DNA from: a virus
Virus record (IMG/VR): IMGVR_UViG_3300009128_001551
Coordinates: 33,254 to 97,253 of that record
Length of the DNA: 64,000 nt
Direction: 5' to 3' (one strand)
The position numbers and the translations under genes were made by a program. Of this stretch, positions 5,161 through 56,459 are shown one piece after another (the first letter of the stretch is position 1; every line of letters begins with the position of its first letter). Under the pieces are notes generated by a model, which did not search any database, was not told the origin of the DNA, and saw only the letters and a list, made by a program, of their open reading frames with translations.

Positions 5161-8100
5161 ATGCTAATGTCAATTAATAAAATTTCTCCGCCCAGACGAT
5201 TTGTCGGATTACATGCACATGATGGATCAAGTGTCTATGACGGTCTAGGCTATCCTAATGAGCACATCGATTTCATTCTTGAGAACGGAATGAATTCTCT
5301 AGCCTTAACAAATCACGGTCACATGAATTCAGCAGCTCATGCGCATAACTATGCAAAGAAGCTAAAGACAAAAGGGAAGCAGTATAGGCACATATACGGA
5401 TGTGAGTGCTATTTCGTTGATGATCTATCAGAATGGAGAAATGACTACAATAAGCATCGTGAGAGGGTTAGGCTTGAGAGAGAGACCAAAAGAAAGATCT
5501 CTGTAGATGACGGAGACGAAAGTGAGGGTCTCATTGTTGAAAATGAAAATGAGACAAAGAAAGATAGAGGTGAATACCCAGAGTGGAAGAGGAGATATCA
5601 TCTTGTTGTTATAGCGAAAAATTTCAAAGGTCTCCAAAATCTTTTTAGGCTTATTAAGATGTCATATAAGGAAGGGTTTTATAGATTTCCAAGGATTGAC
5701 TTCAAGATGCTAAAGGAAAATTCTGATGGGCTTATTGTATCTACAGCATGTGTGGGAGGCCGAGCATCAGGTCACATATTCCAGGAATTTCCAGATAAGC
5801 AATTTGATGAGCTATCACCAGGATTAGTTGATGATCCCTATGTTCTCAAGTCAGTGATGAGAAAGCTTGAGAACATGACTGATAGATTTGTTGATGCTGT
5901 TGGCAGAGAAAATTTCTTTTTAGAGTTGCAATTTAACGATCTTGTCGCACAACACCTTACAAATCGATGTCTTCTAGAGCTGTCAGATAAAACTGGTATC
6001 CCGCTTATCTCAACTGCTGACTCACATTATTGCAGGCCTGAGATGTGGGAGGCACGAGAGATGTATAAAATTTTAGGAAGAATGGGATCTAGAGATGATG
6101 AGATGCCAAAACTTCCAGAGAAGAGTGAGCTAAAGTGCGAGCTATACCCAAAGAATGCTCAACAGATGTGGGAGTCATTTAAGAAAGGCTATGATCAATA
6201 TGACTTCTATCGCGGTCATGAGAACACAGTAAAGGATTCAATTGGGAGAACCTATGGCATTGCGTGGGATATGTGTGATGAGGTTTGGTTTGACGGTAAC
6301 AGCGCAAAACTTCCAGACTTTACAACACCCCAAAGGTCAGCATTCGGACAATTAGTTGATCAGGTAAAGGAAGGAATGATAAAGTCAGACCTTCATGAGA
6401 AGCCTGAATATCTCGTCAGGGTCAAAGAAGAGCTTTCTGTCATTAAAGAACTAGGGTTTGAAAACTACTTTTTAACCTTAACTAAAGTGTTTGATAAGGC
6501 TAAGAATCAAACCCTGATAGGTCCGGGAAGGGGATCAGGTGCGGGTAGTCTTGTTAATTATGTCTTAGGAATAACTCATGTTGATCCAATAAAGTATAAT
6601 CTTCTCTTTGAGAGATTTTTGGGTCTTCATAAAGCAAGCTGGCCTGATATTGATACAGACGTCGGAGATCGAGATGTTTTAATCGATGTGTCAAGAGAGC
6701 TCTTTGGAGACGATTCTGTAATTCCTGTATCAAATTTTAATACATTAAAACTCAAATCATTGATCAAAGATGTGTCTAAGTTTTACGGGATTCCATTTGA
6801 TGAAGTCAATAAGCTCACAAACCCTTTAGAAAGAGAGGTGATGCCTCGTGCTATGGGAGACCACGAGGAAAAATCAACATATGTTTTGACTCATGAGGAT
6901 TGCATGAAATATAGTGAACCATACCAGAAGTTTATGAAAAAATACCCTAAGGTTTCTGAGCATGTTCAAACACTATTTATGGAGTTGAGGTCTATTGGCA
7001 GACACGCTGGCGGCGTCTTGGTGTGTCCTGATCTTGAGACCCACATGCCGATAGTCAAAGTCAGAGGTGAGTTGCAGACACCGTGGTCTGAAGGAATGAA
7101 CTTTAGGCATCTAGAAGAGAATGGATTTCTAAAGTTTGACTTTCTTGGTCTTGCGACATTGAAGATGGTGGAGGACACCATTAGGCTAGTTTTAAGAAAG
7201 AAAGGTGTTGAAAATCCTTCATTCGATCAGATAAATAAGTTCTTTGATGATCACTTAAACAGCAGATATCATGACATGGATGATCAAAGGGTGTGGGAAT
7301 ATGTGTATCATGGTGGGCGATTCGTTCAAATCTTTCAGTTTGTAAATTCTGGTGCAAGAAAGTTTTGTCAAAATGCAAAGCCACGATCGATTGATGATCT
7401 TGCTACAATTACCGCAATATATCGTCCAGGACCTTTAGCAGCAAAGGTCGATAAGAAGTATGTAAAGACTAAGCAAGAAGTTGATGCCGGTAAGAAAATA
7501 TCATACGACCATCCTGTCATAGAGGAGGTTACAGGCAAGACATATTCCTATCTGTGTTTTCAAGAGCAGTTTATGATGTTAGCACAGAAGCTAGCAGGGT
7601 TTGATAAAGGTGAGTCTGACAAGATGAGAAAGACTCTTGTAAAGAAATCTCTTGATTCAAACGCAGCAAAGGTTCAGGAAAGAATTGATCTTAGAAAGAA
7701 ATTTGTAGATGGGTCAGTCAACCTAAGCGGAATGGATAGGGAAAAGGCCGAGAAGCTATATGAGACAATAGAATATTTCTCAGGATATGGCTTTAACGCA
7801 AGTCACGCTGTATCGTATGCAGTTGACTCATATTACTCTGCATGGCTTCACACATATTATGAAAAAGAGTGGCTGGCGACATGCCTTCAGACGTGGAACG
7901 GCTCACCAAAGTTTGGAAAGATAATGGCGGAAATAAAATCTCTTGGATATAAGTTTCTTCCTCCTGACATCAATACATCATCTGACGTCTGGGTTTACAG
8001 TGATGATCGAGAAGGATTTGTTCCTCCTCTCACAGCAATAAAGGGTGTGGGTAAGTCAGCAGTTCAGGAAATAATGATGCGAAGGCCATTTACATGCATA

Positions 8101-49373: not shown

Positions 49374-50108
49374 ATGATTAAAAAGGCTGCTTTGCTTCTT
49401 TTTCTATTTTTTATTTTATCAAATATTTGCTATGGTTCTAGTGATCTAAAGTCGATTTTATCTCTTGACTATGTTGGAAGCACATCAAGCTTGTCAACAG
49501 TTGAGAATAAGATTAGATCAGCTGCTGTCAAGGTTCAGTCGCGAGGAGGCCACGGATCTGGAACATATGTAACAATTCAAGGGTTTCATGTAATAATAAC
49601 TGCAGCACACGTTGTCAGTGATGGATCAAATCAGTTTCTTATTCTGGGTGAAAATGAAAGAATAGTTGGTCATTTGATATACAAGGATGAAAGCATAGAT
49701 GTTGCAGCTCTATTGATATCTCCAATGAGGAGCAGATCTCCGATAAAATATAATCCTACTTCTGATGCTGCGCCCATCGGGACACAAATAATATATTCAG
49801 GCTTTCCATCATCTCACAGTCTTTTGACGATAAGGGGAATGATATCCGGATATGAGAAAGATCAGTCAGGAAAGGAAATAATAATACTTCATTCCTATGG
49901 GTGGTTCGGATGTTCAGGATCGGGTGTATATGACATTAATGGAAACTTTGTTGGCGTTCTTTGGGGAATTGACGTCCAGAGGAGGCAGGGCACACACATA
50001 ATTGAGGACATAATTTGGGTAACCCCGTCTAGTAGAATTAGTGAAGATGAAATTCTTAGAGGGATTTGTAGAAGCATCCTGACATCATCAAATGTGTGTC
50101 AGGACTAA
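49374..50108 (+). CDS. Exported trypsin-like serine protease
   Basis: 244 residues. Signal peptide LLLFLFFILSNICYG. Catalytic His in VIITAAHVVSDG, Asp in ESIDVAALLISP and Ser in GWFGCSGSGVYDINGNFVG (GxSGSGxY), consistent with a chymotrypsin-fold protease of the S1/trypsin-2 group. It acts outside the cytoplasm. It converges with and overlaps the thioredoxin-like gene on the other strand by 4 bases. Confidence 0.85.
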   Translation: MIKKAALLLFLFFILSNICYGSSDLKSILSLDYVGSTSSLSTVENKIRSAAVKVQSRGGHGSGTYVTIQGFHVIITAAHVVSDGSNQFLILGENERIVGHLIYKDESIDVAALLISPMRSRSPIKYNPTSDAAPIGTQIIYSGFPSSHSLLTIRGMISGYEKDQSGKEIIILHSYGWFGCSGSGVYDINGNFVGVLWGIDVQRRQGTHIIEDIIWVTPSSRISEDEILRGICRSILTSSNVCQD

Positions 50109-50686
50109 TCTGTAATCAGATCTTGAATTTTTTGATCTAAAAGATGTTCGCTATATCCGATCATTTCATCAACAAGTTTCATTTTATCGTCTATAAAATA
50201 AAACGTGGGCCAGCTTGTCAGATTCCACCCTGTTTGTGACGAATAGTCTATCATGTCTCTGCTTCCTGCAAGAACTCTTGGATCAATTATTCCATATTGA
50301 TCTGCCCACACTTTACAGTCGTCAGATGTTGGCTCTGTTCCCACAGGTGTCTCTATTAAAATTGTGATGTATGATAGGTTGTACTCAGAGTATTTGTCAC
50401 TTGTCTCCTGAATTTCCTCTGCTGCAGCCTGACACGGTGGACACCACATTGCACTTAGGTCTAAGACGATAGGCTGTCTATAAAAATCATATAGAGATAC
50501 TTCGTTTCCATTCTGGTCTAAGAGAGTAAAATTGCAAGGATGGTCTCCCGTTGACTGTGAGCATGTATCCCACGGATATATTACTTCATTTGTATCATCG
50601 CTGTCTTTTGTAAGAGTTGGTAGGCATGATGAGCACCCAATAAGTAATGCAACAGAATATATTAAAAGGCTTTTTAAGCTTTTCAT
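50105..50686 (-). CDS. Thioredoxin-fold lipoprotein (TlpA/redoxin-like)
   Basis: 193 residues on the - strand. The lipobox ALLIGC ends the signal peptide. SAMWCPPCQAAAEEI is the CxxC thiol-disulphide site, followed by VWADQYGIIDPRV and SWPTFYFIDDKMKLV with the cis-Pro. It probably moves disulphides in the periplasm. It overlaps the end of the vWA gene by 4 bases, so the two are one operon; many phage lipoproteins here have Cys pairs. Confidence 0.82.
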   Translation of the reverse strand: MKSLKSLLIYSVALLIGCSSCLPTLTKDSDDTNEVIYPWDTCSQSTGDHPCNFTLLDQNGNEVSLYDFYRQPIVLDLSAMWCPPCQAAAEEIQETSDKYSEYNLSYITILIETPVGTEPTSDDCKVWADQYGIIDPRVLAGSRDMIDYSSQTGWNLTSWPTFYFIDDKMKLVDEMIGYSEHLLDQKIQDLITD

Positions 50687-52275
50687 TGACAGTCACCGTA
50701 TATTGCATATGTTATTTCAATATTGCTTCCCTCAGGAGGTGATACACTAAACACAACTGAATTTATAGATTGATTGTATGACCACGCAAATGACTCTACT
50801 CCGTCAACATAAACCTCTATTGTATCCTCTATTGGTGTTTTGCTTAGAGAAAAGCTAAATGATGAAATTGAATCTCTTGCCAGGGCATCCATTTGAACAC
50901 CCCAGTCAGTTGCACATATTGACATAAATGTTCCGTTAAAGTCATTCACAACGTCATAATATCCGTCACCAAATTGTGCATAGCCGTTTCCAGAGCAACC
51001 ACCGGGATAGTCACCTGCAACAGCGTGCGCAATAATCAAGTTGTTCGAAGGTTTCAGGCTTCTTAGATGTGAAGAGTAATCAGAAGGAGACATCCACGGA
51101 GAGTAATTGCTAGATGCATCAGGTTCATCTGACACATAAATTACAACTAGTCTTGCATTATTTCTCATAAACTGACTGCCTGGACCTGCAGAAGCTCCCG
51201 CCAGTGTTGCTTCATATGAATATTTTAGACCTTTCTCTACTGGATTTCCAGATATTCCTATGCTATCAATGATGTCATTGACTGCCAGGATGGGGTTTTG
51301 TGTTGATGGAGTAATAATAGCATTATCAATTATTTCTGCGCTATCTGTTGTTATAAATGCAATTTGATAATCCGCACCCGACGTCGAAAATACATTTATA
51401 AATGAATCAAAATTATTCTTAAGGTTTGTTTGATGGCCGCTCATTGAACATGAGTTGTCTATGACAAATAAAACATCAGACATTATGTCTTCTTTTTGCT
51501 CAAACTCGTCTATGACATATGCAAAATAGTCACCGTCACCACCCTGCTCAACAGTCTTGACAGGTGTCTGAGGATCGTTTGATGAAATGTCAATATATCC
51601 TGCATCAAAGATATCATCTAGCGGTGCATAGTCGATAAACATCTCAGCATAGTTTCCTGGCGGAATAATCCACGGAAAGAGTCCATTCACTTGTTCATTC
51701 TTGTCTATGTCAAGATTAACTGGATGAGATATAAAGTAGTTAATTGAGCTAATTTCAAGATCAGCATTTCCAATGTTAGAAATTGTGACAGGTAAAGAAT
51801 CATCACATCCAACGATGACGTTTCCAAAGTCATAATATTCTGGCTGAACGTGTATTATGGGTGCATCACCAGACCCATTAATTGGAACTTCAACAACTTT
51901 GTCAGTAGGATCATTTGATTCAATTAAGATAACATTTTGATCTGATGAATATGTACTTGGTTCATAATAAATGAAAAACTCTGTTTTATCTCCAGGGTCT
52001 ATGCTTTTATCACTAATTGAGGTAATTGTGTGGACACCTGTTGAAAATTTAAGATAGACGTTTTCAACATTTAAATCATCTGTTCCGATGTTTTCTATTT
52101 CTATCTCTTGCACACCGACGTCGTTACCAGATAAAAGTGTACCAAAGTCAACGCTGTCTGGTGACACACGTATATCAGGCATCTTAGTAGGATTGTTTGA
52201 AAGCTCATAGTCAATACAACTAATGGAAGTGACTGCGAGCAGTGAAACAATAATGCTCTTACGAATATTGATCAT
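50683..52275 (-). CDS. vWA lipoprotein with choice-of-anchor-D-like repeats
   Basis: 530 residues from ATG 52275 (the frame extends upstream but the lipobox LLAVTSISC favours this start). Two repeats of about 100 residues each (DSVDFGTLLSGNDVGVQEIE; YYDFGNVIVGCDDSLPVTIS) resemble the choice-of-anchor-D/HYDIN-like beta-sandwich. The vWA part has DVLFVIDNSCSMSGHQ (DxSxS) and RLVVIYVSDEPDA. The C-terminal domain (PIEDTIEVYVDGVESFAWSY) is shared with the vWA lipoprotein at 38909-39841. Exported and probably adhesive. It is transcribed divergently from 52333-52587. Confidence 0.72.
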   Translation of the reverse strand: MINIRKSIIVSLLAVTSISCIDYELSNNPTKMPDIRVSPDSVDFGTLLSGNDVGVQEIEIENIGTDDLNVENVYLKFSTGVHTITSISDKSIDPGDKTEFFIYYEPSTYSSDQNVILIESNDPTDKVVEVPINGSGDAPIIHVQPEYYDFGNVIVGCDDSLPVTISNIGNADLEISSINYFISHPVNLDIDKNEQVNGLFPWIIPPGNYAEMFIDYAPLDDIFDAGYIDISSNDPQTPVKTVEQGGDGDYFAYVIDEFEQKEDIMSDVLFVIDNSCSMSGHQTNLKNNFDSFINVFSTSGADYQIAFITTDSAEIIDNAIITPSTQNPILAVNDIIDSIGISGNPVEKGLKYSYEATLAGASAGPGSQFMRNNARLVVIYVSDEPDASSNYSPWMSPSDYSSHLRSLKPSNNLIIAHAVAGDYPGGCSGNGYAQFGDGYYDVVNDFNGTFMSICATDWGVQMDALARDSISSFSFSLSKTPIEDTIEVYVDGVESFAWSYNQSINSVVFSVSPPEGSNIEITYAIYGDCQ

Positions 52276-52332
52276 TTGATAATACATATGCTGAGTTTCT
52301 ATATTCTTGAATTCAAAATATGTAGAAATATA

Positions 52333-52587
52333 ATGACAATTAAAAAAGGTGATCTTGTTCAGTATGTTTCTCATCACAATACATCAGCACACAATGTGAT
52401 TCCTGATGGCAAACATCCAATTGGTCTTGTTCTAGAGATAAAGGAATATGTGATAGGTGAAAATCTTGAAACTGGCGCAATTATGAAAACAATTATTGTT
52501 AAATGGTCAGATGAAAAATGGAATACAACACTAGGAGTATCAGAAGAGTTTGAACTTGATTTGAATCTTATTCAAAATATTTCATAA
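52333..52587 (+). CDS. Small SH3-like protein (GDLVQ family)
   Basis: 84 residues from ATG 52333. MTIKKGDLVQYVSHHNTSAH, then GKHPIGLVLEIKEYVIG and KTIIVKWSDEKW, the same scheme as the 56-63 kb array. The 57-base space to the divergent vWA gene must hold promoters for both. Confidence 0.6.
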   Translation: MTIKKGDLVQYVSHHNTSAHNVIPDGKHPIGLVLEIKEYVIGENLETGAIMKTIIVKWSDEKWNTTLGVSEEFELDLNLIQNIS

Positions 52588-53381: not shown

Positions 53382-53750
53382 ATGATAAAGCCACTTGTAG
53401 CATCATTAGTTTTATTATGCGGCTGTTCAGTAAAATTACATTATGCCGGAAAGAACTTTGAACCAAGCCAGAGCATGTGTGTAGATTCTCTTCTTGTTAA
53501 CATGGACGTGGCAGGATGTGACACAGTATATTATGGGTATTCTCAAAGCAGAGGAGCGTTTAAAGTAAGATGTGTCAGTTTTAATGAAAAACTTTCTGAT
53601 GATGAACAAGTCTTACGTGAGTGGACAACATATTCATTTTTTGTATCTCCATCGTTTGCTCCGCTCCCGTCAGAATCAGACCTAATACCAATATGCTCAG
53701 ATAGAAATGCAACAATATATTTTTTAGATGAAGATTCACAAGGGCAATAG
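53382..53750 (+). CDS. Small lipoprotein
   Basis: 122 residues. LVASLVLLCGC is a lipobox signal; mature part has paired Cys (MCVDSLLVNMDVAGCDTVYY). AGGTGAC upstream of ATG. The function is unknown; it is one of the exported set. Confidence 0.55.
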   Translation: MIKPLVASLVLLCGCSVKLHYAGKNFEPSQSMCVDSLLVNMDVAGCDTVYYGYSQSRGAFKVRCVSFNEKLSDDEQVLREWTTYSFFVSPSFAPLPSESDLIPICSDRNATIYFLDEDSQGQ

Positions 53751-53751
53751 A

Positions 53752-55230
53752 GTGAAACTTTCTAAGAAGTCTCTTAAGAAAATAATAAAAGAAGAGCTGA
53801 TTAACGAAATTGGAATGGGCCAAAATCTGTATGGTGACGTTCACGCTGGAGATGATCGATCTATAGAGGTCGTGTCAAGTGCCATAGAGCATGGAAATGA
53901 GATTGATGAAAGACTTCGAATTGCAATGAGAGAAAGAGCTGTTCGTGATTTTTCCTCTCTTTATGTGAATGCTATTCGTGATGAATTAAGACAGTTCATA
54001 GAAGACAACCCAGGAATTGAAAGTCAAGATGACTTATCACCTGACAAACTTAGGGAGATAAAAGAAACATCAGCGAAAAAGGCTCTTAGGAGATACAAGT
54101 CATCTTATACAAACACTAAGCTGATATCAGACTATACTGAAAGAGTTGAAAGAATTATTGGAAAACCAGTTCCACCGACATTTCGACAGCTACTAATAAG
54201 ATATGCAAAAGATTTCGCATATCAGTTCGTCTTTGGTTTTTTAGACAATGTAATTTTGATTCTTGCGGGAGCAGCAATTGACGACTATATTAAGCTTGTA
54301 TTTGGCGCTGAAAAACTTCAAAGAGCACTTTCACCAGACGATCTTGCTTTCATCACAGACGGTATTGGAAACGCAATATCTGATGGTGTTGGAGATGTCG
54401 GCGGTAGTGCTGTAGAGGGTGCGGTTGATAGTTGGTCTTGGTTGGATGATGCAGCAACTGATAAACAGCTTGAGATAGCAACACCGTTTCAGAAAATGAT
54501 GGCAAAGACTGCTACATTTACAGGGGTCGTTTTAGGGTGTCTAGCTGCAATACCCGTTGGAATACTTGTTCTTAAAGGGTTGACAGCTATGGGAATCTCA
54601 GCAACAGCAGGTATGGGAGCAACGGGAAGTTATTTGTCTGGTGGGTTAGGGCTTGTTGCATCAGCGCTGATGATAAAAACTGCAATCGATGAATTTAAAA
54701 TGCTTGATGAGGCAGCACAAGACACAATGAACTCTGCCTTAAGCGTTGTTATGTCAAGAGTGTATAAGAAGAGAAAAGAAGCAGGCATAGAGCTACCACC
54801 TCGACAACAATATACAGTTGATAATTTTGCAGGTGACGTAGTAGATGATAGAGATATAGCTCAGATCATATGGAATGATGAGATGGATTATTCAAAACTA
54901 GCATCTCATCACGATATGAATTATAACGACGTCTGGATAACTGTTGATGCGCTGTCTAATCGATTTGGCTTAGATAATCCAAACAGAACTCGATTAGATG
55001 AAAGTAACAAAGATCAGCTAGTCTACATGATACGACATCTGATTATTGCTGAATCAGGAAAAAAGAAAAAATACAGAGGCTATCATCCAGATGAATCTTA
55101 TGAAAAGGGTACTGTTAAGAATTTAATGCTAGATCAACCAAGCTCTCATGGAGGCTGGCCAGAAGGAGAATACGATCCTAAAGTTAATGATAGAATAACT
55201 AAATGGCTAAAAGATATGGAAATGATTTAA
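53752..55230 (+). CDS. Large membrane protein with LKKIIKEEL N-terminus
   Basis: About 492 residues from GTG 53752. It opens KLSKKSLKKIIKEELINE, the recurring peptide. Membrane-type segments occur in the middle: DFAYQFVFGFLDNVILILAG and TFTGVVLGCLAAIPVGILVL, then SGGLGLVASALMIKTAI. Hydrophilic ends. Could be a virion-internal protein that enters the host membrane during ejection, or a host-membrane protein. It starts one base after the lipoprotein gene ends. Confidence 0.5.
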   Translation: MKLSKKSLKKIIKEELINEIGMGQNLYGDVHAGDDRSIEVVSSAIEHGNEIDERLRIAMRERAVRDFSSLYVNAIRDELRQFIEDNPGIESQDDLSPDKLREIKETSAKKALRRYKSSYTNTKLISDYTERVERIIGKPVPPTFRQLLIRYAKDFAYQFVFGFLDNVILILAGAAIDDYIKLVFGAEKLQRALSPDDLAFITDGIGNAISDGVGDVGGSAVEGAVDSWSWLDDAATDKQLEIATPFQKMMAKTATFTGVVLGCLAAIPVGILVLKGLTAMGISATAGMGATGSYLSGGLGLVASALMIKTAIDEFKMLDEAAQDTMNSALSVVMSRVYKKRKEAGIELPPRQQYTVDNFAGDVVDDRDIAQIIWNDEMDYSKLASHHDMNYNDVWITVDALSNRFGLDNPNRTRLDESNKDQLVYMIRHLIIAESGKKKKYRGYHPDESYEKGTVKNLMLDQPSSHGGWPEGEYDPKVNDRITKWLKDMEMI

Positions 55231-55262: not shown

Positions 55263-55538
55263 ATGAAAAAGACCGAGAAGGATATGATAGAGAAGATCTA
55301 TCTCTCAAGAGAAGCTTATTTAGACTTGCTAAGCCTAAAGATAGAATCATTGCATAAATGCTTAGAAAATCTTAAATCAAAGATAAAAAATGAGGGACAT
55401 AGGGGATACTATAGTTGCAATTCAGATGTCATAAGATATAGTCAGGAGATATGGAAAGCATGTAATTCTCTTTGTGTAATGAAAGAAATTGAACAAGATT
55501 TAATAAAAAAATCATCTAAAAAGAAGAGAAAGAAATGA
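55263..55538 (+). CDS. Small helical hypothetical protein
   Basis: 91 residues from ATG 55263. LDLLSLKIESLHKCLENLKS and a Lys-rich end (KKSSKKKRKK). Overlaps the next ATG. Unknown. Confidence 0.4.
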   Translation: MKKTEKDMIEKIYLSREAYLDLLSLKIESLHKCLENLKSKIKNEGHRGYYSCNSDVIRYSQEIWKACNSLCVMKEIEQDLIKKSSKKKRKK

Positions 55539-55735
55539 TAATTGACATGTACGTTCATAGCAGAGCTCATCATATTTCTAAGCACATAAAGACCAGTGAA
55601 TATCATAAATTGCTTGCGACGCTAAAGAAAAGTTCAAAAAGCGGAGAGCCGTCAATGTTTAAATTTGAAGACGGATCAATTATCAGACTATCAGACATTC
55701 AATATATTAACACATCACCTGATATTCCATTTTAA
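55535..55735 (+). CDS. Small hypothetical protein
   Basis: 66 residues. HISKHIKTSEYHKLLATLKK then FKFEDGSIIRLSDIQYIN. No domain known. ATGA overlap with the previous gene. Confidence 0.4.
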   Translation: MIIDMYVHSRAHHISKHIKTSEYHKLLATLKKSSKSGEPSMFKFEDGSIIRLSDIQYINTSPDIPF

Positions 55736-55738
55736 ACA

Positions 55739-56065
55739 ATGATTTCATTAATGATAATTTTTCTCTCTGCTTTCAACGCCCCGGCAGAGGGCTTTAGAAT
55801 CAGTCAAAATATATCTATGCAAGATTAAGGAGACAGACTGTTTCAGTCAAAGGCATGCAAGACATGTCACACATCAGGAGTGTGTCCTGACCTGTCGGGA
55901 TTTTCATCACGAAAGATGATTGCCGGCGTTCTTGAGAATACTCCTGAAAATCTTGCACGATGGCTAAGGGATCCAGATAGTGTTAAGCCCGGTACAACAA
56001 TGCCAAATCTATATTTGAGCGATGTTGAGATTCAGATCTTAGTTGAACATCTTCAAAAAATGTAG
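55739..56065 (+). pseudogene. Class I cytochrome c-like gene interrupted by an in-frame TAA
   Basis: One frame reads a signal peptide (MISLMIIFLSAFNAPAEG), then TAA at 55826-55828, then GDRLFQSKACKTCHTSG, with the CxxCH haem-binding motif, and TMPNLYLSDVEIQILVEHL, with a Met axial ligand candidate (TMPN). Joined, this is a normal small exported c-type cytochrome of about 108 residues. TAA could be a single mutation from GAA or CAA. AAGGAG sits right after the stop, and a CTG 5 bases on could restart translation without the signal peptide. Either decay, sequencing error, or stop readthrough. Confidence 0.65.
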
Positions 56066-56102
56066 TAATATAGGTTATATTAAGGAGAAAGACTCATGCC
56101 CA

Positions 56103-56459
56103 GTGTACTATCGAGCTCGTAAATTAGCAATTAATAACGGAAGAGCTTATCACGTTGCTGCAATCTTAAGGCGTCGGGGAAAGATTGTTAAGATCGGTGA
56201 AAACACTTGTAAGACTCATCCAAGATTTAAAAGAATATATCCTGATGGAACGACAGGCTCTCATATGCATGCTGAGATGAACGTTTTGAGATTTGCTATG
56301 GAAGGTGATGAAATAGAGGTTATGAGATTTAAAAGATCTGATGACGGTTTTGCAATGGCTAAGCCATGTAAGCATTGTATGTTTCACATTAAAGACGCAG
56401 GAATAAAGAGGGTTAAGTATACCGATGAAAACGGCATGTGGAATGAGCTAGTTCTGTGA
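56103..56459 (+). CDS. Zinc deaminase-like protein, start disrupted by a 1-base shift
   Basis: About 118 residues if GTG 56103 is used. SHMHAEMNVLRF is the HxE zinc/catalytic motif and AKPCKHCMFHIKDAGIKRVK the PCxxC pair, as in cytidine/dCMP deaminases. An ATG with AAGGAG at the right distance lies at 56096 but is out of frame by one base: ATGCCCAGTG; with CC instead of CCC the frame would run straight in. So the gene may carry a frameshift or a sequencing error. Confidence 0.6.
   Translation: MYYRARKLAINNGRAYHVAAILRRRGKIVKIGENTCKTHPRFKRIYPDGTTGSHMHAEMNVLRFAMEGDEIEVMRFKRSDDGFAMAKPCKHCMFHIKDAGIKRVKYTDENGMWNELVL

Follow-up and report, generated by a model that had tools for sequence, protein, structure and literature searches.

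The window analysed here, a stretch of 64,000 nucleotides, is part of an IMG/VR contig of 97,253 bases. On its plus strand, a frame of 108 codons (55739-56065), the exact span of which was verified from the sequence and its translation, reads MISLMIIFLSAFNAPAEGFRISQNISMQD*GDRLFQSKACKTCHTSGVCPDLSGFSSRKMIAGVLENTPENLARWLRDPDSVKPGTTMPNLYLSDVEIQILVEHLQKM*. A leader part of 29 codons is followed by a TAA codon at 55826-55828 and by 78 sense codons up to the TAG at 56063-56065; the TAA is the sole internal stop, and the remainder of the frame is undamaged. An earlier note on this DNA had described a cytochrome c gene with an in-frame stop, in which a CxxCH site and a Met-ligand segment lie in one frame interrupted only by the TAA at 55826. 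The translation bears out this description, and a Pfam match above the cutoff, homologues and an intact phage relative confirm the identity of the gene. The locus and its surroundings contain the following features:

50105-50686, minus strand: ResA/TlpA-like lipoprotein thioredoxin (WCPPC), 5 kb from the cytochrome (PF00578, 2.6e-12; NCBIfam ResA, 1.8e-9, which is under that model's cutoff)
55535-55735, plus strand: upstream ORF of 66 aa, no Pfam match, with its stop 3 bases before the cytochrome ATG (sequence)
55739-55825, plus strand: leader of 29 codons, consisting of a Sec signal-peptide-like N-terminus (MISLMIIFLSAFNAPA) and a linker, ending at the in-frame stop (sequence; aligned to the leader of L157, the intact phage relative)
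55826-55828, plus strand: TAA interrupting the gene, immediately 5' of the cytochrome domain (sequence; opposite a sense codon in L157-L159)
55827-55832, plus strand: AAGGAG, Shine-Dalgarno-like, overlapping the TAA and followed after 5 bases by CTG (55838), which is not a usual start codon (sequence)
55829-56065, plus strand: complete class I monohaem cytochrome c domain of the CoxB type (caa3 subunit II, C-terminal), 78 aa, stop TAG at 56063-56065 (PF00034, 2yev_B and CoxB matches, AlphaFold2, Foldseek)
55856-55870, plus strand: CKTCH haem-attachment site, domain residues Cys10, Cys13 and His14 (sequence; invariant across three alignments)
56000-56002, plus strand: Met58, presumed distal haem ligand, within PGTTMPNL (sequence; invariant across three alignments)
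56103-56459, plus strand: downstream deaminase-family gene (PF00383, 4.4e-7; 62-71% identical in the related contigs G001, G009, G010 and G012)

The domain encoded behind the stop (55829-56062) reaches 25.9 bits against Pfam Cytochrom_C (PF00034), the gathering score of which is 21.3. Among all six frames, it is the cytochrome frame whose codons match the codon usage of the phage core genes best, and tblastn searches against bacterial coxB genes gave E-values down to 3e-17. The Pfam score, the fitting codon usage and the strong homologues show that the domain is not a chance match. The best sequence match in the PDB is chain B of 2yev, subunit II of the Thermus caa3 oxidase, which is matched over its C-terminal cytochrome c domain with an E-value of 9.6e-11. 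The domain is also matched by 293 plasmid records, the best of which are annotated as coxB, and among 66 bacterial loci the best matches are either small cytochromes with a single domain or the C-terminal domains of proteins that have the length of CoxB. All sequences of the widest alignment share the CxxCH motif, the Leu of P-x-L, Pro49 and Met58, and those of a narrower one share Pro20, Trp45 and Pro54-Gly55; the domain thus has a CxxCH motif near its N-terminus and a downstream Met ligand, formed by the invariant residues Cys10, Cys13, His14 and Met58. An AlphaFold2 model based on an alignment of 15 rows (mean pLDDT 95.7, pTM 0.84) has the all-helical fold of class I cytochromes c. In a Foldseek search of the PDB with this model, 2yev_B was the sole match with an E-value below 0.001 (TM-score of 0.85 on the query), and other cytochromes c came next. 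The models for ExtS and SoxX match the domain weakly and far under their cutoffs. The caa3/CoxB origin of the domain, which had no place in the earlier note, is identified by the present analysis.

Homologues are scarce among viruses. No PHROGs family matches the cytochrome, the domain model has no significant match among the predicted viral structures of BFVD, and 50,697 phage records contain no homologue of either the window's cytochrome or its relative L157. The IMG/VR matches L003-L005 were rejected, as they consist of an 'ARWLRDPD' stretch in a GC-rich contig without a haem motif. A profile search of viral contigs, however, revealed one further phage cytochrome, which is found on three near-identical contigs (L157-L159; 50.9, 41.7 and 60.2 kb) and provides the intact relatives for which the earlier note had asked. 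In L157, the gene (L157:7845-8255) is a frame of 136 codons that is open from a TTG at 7845, has no stop and keeps the leader continuous with the domain; the protein consists of a hydrophobic leader with a lipobox-like IASC, a linker and a CSTCH haem site, and it passes PF00034 with 30.9 bits. Its neighbours, named from their sequences, are apparently genes for a phosphoribosyltransferase, a nucleosidase and a DNA ligase and differ from those in the window. About a dozen other genes are common to L157-L159 and the window's contig, which assigns these contigs, judged by gene content, to a phage that is more distant but falls within the same broad group.

The window's protein aligns to the L157 protein over its full length, including leader and linker across the stop, and the position aligned with the stop is a sense codon just 5' of the conserved Gly of the domain. 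In the two phage proteins, 5 and 7 residues separate the haem His from the Pro of P-x-L, compared with at least 10 in the bacterial homologues inspected; for its first three rows, the automatic count was replaced by a reading by eye. Given the alignment of the intact relative across the stop and the shortened haem loop of both phage proteins, the sequences place the gene in a phage-borne cytochrome c family, albeit a thin one with a single other distinct phage sequence; two further scans yielded no third member. Between the window's gene and that of L157, different codons are used for 28 of the 48 identical residues and third positions diverge most, as expected if the gene was kept for its protein since the two copies split.

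The earlier note had also read the leader as a signal peptide. Its core is hydrophobic and is followed by APA, but its N-region lacks Lys or Arg, and its hydropathy alone is not distinctive, since 33 of the 926 open ATG stretches in the window score about equally. The reading is strengthened by the alignment with the leader of the intact phage relative, and the window's leader is probably a signal peptide. In the window's copy, the export signal is not continuous with the domain, as the in-frame leader is cut off by the TAA. For the earlier note, relatives with no signal peptide in frame would have made the match accidental; the relatives carry a signal-peptide-like leader in frame.

The contig is that of a genuine large phage, which encodes a polymerase of the DNA polymerase III alpha type, a DnaB-like helicase, a UvsX-like recombinase, a ribonucleotide reductase, an endolysin, GroEL and tRNAs. 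Twelve related contigs were found, eleven of them via the polymerase (56-75% identical) and one via the deaminase. Because the deaminase gene and, likewise, genes upstream of the cytochrome have homologues in related phage contigs, the cytochrome gene is embedded in phage DNA. With its flanks conserved and with replication and lysis genes on the same contig, it is a metabolic gene within phage DNA and a candidate auxiliary metabolic gene, which would affect the metabolism of the host during infection. The 3-base gap to the upstream 66-aa ORF suggests that this ORF and the cytochrome may be translationally coupled. No oxidase gene or other cytochrome gene was seen near the locus. In the fetched DNA of the twelve related contigs, all of which are possible fragments, no cytochrome was detected by phmmer with the --max option and a scan for CxxCH; a Pfam search of these contigs is uninformative alone, as it misses even the window's own copy.

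Several other genes of this phage were inspected. The Shine-Dalgarno sequence of the deaminase gene (AAGGAG, 56082-56087) points at an ATG at 56096, which is out of frame with the deaminase, and the same layout is found in all relatives checked (L006/L019, L020, L021 and L022; window region 56082-56120). The deaminase either starts at the GTG at 56103 with a long spacing or requires a frame shift directly behind the ATG. Thioredoxins of the ResA/TlpA-like kind reduce apocytochrome thiols, and the one encoded 5 kb from the cytochrome is possibly relevant to periplasmic thiol reduction. It was rejected as a dedicated maturation partner: it is also present in related phages in which no cytochrome was found, and G010 has several homologues. 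Positions 50683-52377 on the minus strand encode a predicted lipoprotein that contains choice-of-anchor D and von Willebrand A domains and weakly resembles Bdellovibrio MIDAS adhesins and Myxococcus CglD. These weak adhesin-like matches give a hint that the host might be found among predatory or gliding bacteria. The region 49374-50108 encodes an exported trypsin-like protease (Trypsin_2, 6.7e-15), and 53728-55230 encodes a protein of 500 amino acids with a TMEM65 match (1.8e-9) preceded by an N-terminal KKSLKKIIKEEL-like segment; such a segment recurs close to the N-terminus in several of the phage's proteins. The UvsX-like gene, located outside the window (L027; G000:C1, 7620-10333), is split. 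Its first ORF closes with an intein-like start (CVNPETTKIKIRY), and a second ORF, which has its own Shine-Dalgarno sequence and ATG, closes with an intein-like C-terminus (NGHINHN/TTPGG). Then follows about 1 kb that contains an endonuclease-like ORF, behind which the UvsX frame resumes. Rfam gave no intron match at the gathering score in this region; the arrangement is possibly a split intein with a further insertion.

For the stop itself, the earlier note had offered decay, a sequencing error or readthrough. Decay by a single nonsense change is favoured here, an error keeps a smaller place, and readthrough is disfavoured. In tblastn comparisons with the ORFs of all relatives, the cytochrome is the only genuine gene on the 97-kb contig whose homologue alignment crosses an internal stop; the other stop-crossing cases, which were read by eye, are gene boundaries or ORFs that overlie real genes in antisense or out of frame. 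The absence of internal stops from the other genes indicates that the consensus is not poor overall, the cytochrome gene contains no frameshift, and single substitution errors are uncommon in assembled contigs. All this weighs against the view that the phage has an intact gene like its relative and that the TAA either arose as an error of consensus or assembly or represents a minority variant. Such a view fits with the existence of the intact relative and with the lack of further decay in the frame, and an exact 34-base pattern yielded no second copy of the contig among viral contigs, a collection that may omit the window's own and near-identical records. On balance, an error is unlikely, albeit to be taken seriously, and we infer that the stop is real rather than an artefact.

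Expression of the gene despite the stop, either by readthrough of the TAA or by re-initiation behind the AAGGAG that overlaps it, is improbable. The contig offers one parallel, as its UvsX-like gene continues in a second ORF with its own Shine-Dalgarno sequence and ATG. However, TAA is in ordinary use, ending about a third of the 123 contig ORFs with homologues (TAA 43, TGA 41, TAG 39; some overlapping spurious ORFs are included), and ARAGORN found no suppressor tRNA on the contig, so that neither a reassigned TAA nor a suppressor tRNA, as in a recoded gene, is indicated. A tRNA-Leu(taa) was rejected as a suppressor, as the name gives the anticodon. The earlier note's suggestion that the AAGGAG could permit re-initiation meets the difficulty that it is followed by a CTG and that the nearest usual in-frame start past the TAA, the GTG at 55880, lies downstream of the CxxCH haem site. 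A product started at the CTG would include the haem site and have no export signal, and the attachment of c-type haem takes place outside the cytoplasm. Furthermore, the relative manages without a stop at the aligned position. Least credible of all is that the match is accidental or that leader and domain are unrelated to each other. The leader alone is not distinctive by hydropathy; however, the strong homology, the confidently predicted fold and the intact phage relative, in which a single frame encodes leader, linker and domain, speak against an accident, which is refuted for the domain. The window's copy is most likely interrupted by one nonsense change and, judged from its reading frame, most likely non-functional. 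As everything else in the frame is intact, the loss would be recent or still segregating.

The observed gene, frame, stop, homology, predicted fold and intact phage relative are best accounted for by an auxiliary gene of phages that encodes a small, exported cytochrome c with one haem, the window's copy of the gene having been broken by one nonsense codon; we give this reading a probability of about two in three. In this scheme, the gene would derive from the part of a caa3-type oxidase subunit II (CoxB) that forms its C-terminal cytochrome c domain, and would have acquired a signal peptide of its own. The intact form, as seen in the related phage, would be secreted, would receive haem c at its CxxCH motif from the maturation machinery of the host and would act as a mobile or membrane-tethered carrier that feeds the terminal oxidase of the host, thereby sustaining respiration and ATP supply during infection to the presumed benefit of the phage. 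On the window's contig, the nonsense codon lies between signal peptide and domain, and no holocytochrome would be expected. The cytochrome c domain of caa3 oxidases is the entry point for electrons into the oxidase (PMC5928083). The simplest role of a free, exported copy would be the transfer of electrons to the terminal oxidase of the host.

A different function would be compatible with the same explanation of the gene. Class I cytochromes c serve many partners, and the protein could have another redox task, for example donating electrons to a periplasmic peroxidase or reductase, or drawing them off as a sink and so altering the respiration of the host. The weak ExtS and SoxX matches and the ResA-like thioredoxin encoded 5 kb away would agree with such a task; those two matches are, however, far under their cutoffs, and the closest homologues by both sequence and fold are caa3 subunit II domains, so that another task is possible but rather unlikely. 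Beyond the single gene, a lineage of large phages may have its own short-loop, stand-alone caa3-type cytochromes c, which would be delivered to the periplasm of the host, would supplement or bypass the host carrier at the terminal oxidase during infection and would have been repeatedly gained and lost among related phages. This idea is tentative and, as it stands, somewhat doubtful.

The phage cytochrome shares the CxxCH, P-x-L, NTPENL-x-x-W and PG-x-x-MP signatures and the C-terminal cytochrome c domain with caa3 subunit II (CoxB/IIc; Thermus 2yev chain B). Unlike this subunit, it is phage-encoded and free-standing with its own leader, has neither the CuA domain nor the membrane helices nor an adjoining subunit I, its loop behind the CxxCH motif is cut to 5-7 residues, and the window's copy is interrupted. 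Small single-domain c-type cytochromes also occur as stand-alone proteins in bacteria, such as WP_134492883.1 of Methylocella tundrae, the gene of which adjoins that of cytochrome c oxidase subunit 3, and Massilia ORFs of 155-169 aa; these differ from the phage protein by a longer haem loop and a chromosomal or plasmid location and are 37-44% identical to it. Among the carriers supplied by phages, cyanophage plastocyanin is a photosynthetic one and shares the trait of being mobile, but carriers of this type are neither haem c proteins nor of the caa3 type. SoxD and other respiratory auxiliary genes of phages are similar in that respiratory or c-type cytochrome proteins are phage-encoded. SoxD is a sulfane dehydrogenase subunit, and its phage copies lack one or both cytochrome motifs (PMC8190135), whereas the haem motif is complete here and the protein is a stand-alone carrier. 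Genes for subunit I of cbb3 oxidases have been found in viral reads (PMC3474794).

No report of a stand-alone caa3-type cytochrome c in a phage was found in the literature covered, which consisted of open-licence papers. Photosynthetic electron carriers are known from phages, as are some respiratory genes for sulfur and nitrogen. In a study of nitrogen genes encoded by viruses, the authors noted that they saw no cytochromes or similar electron carriers in their phages (PMC8115048). Judging from the two sequences described here, some phages seem to supply their hosts with a respiratory electron carrier, and the intact relative allows the idea of a phage cytochrome to be tested by an ordinary expression experiment. 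If true, an oxidase-type haem c carrier would mean that phages also act on the last step of aerobic respiration.
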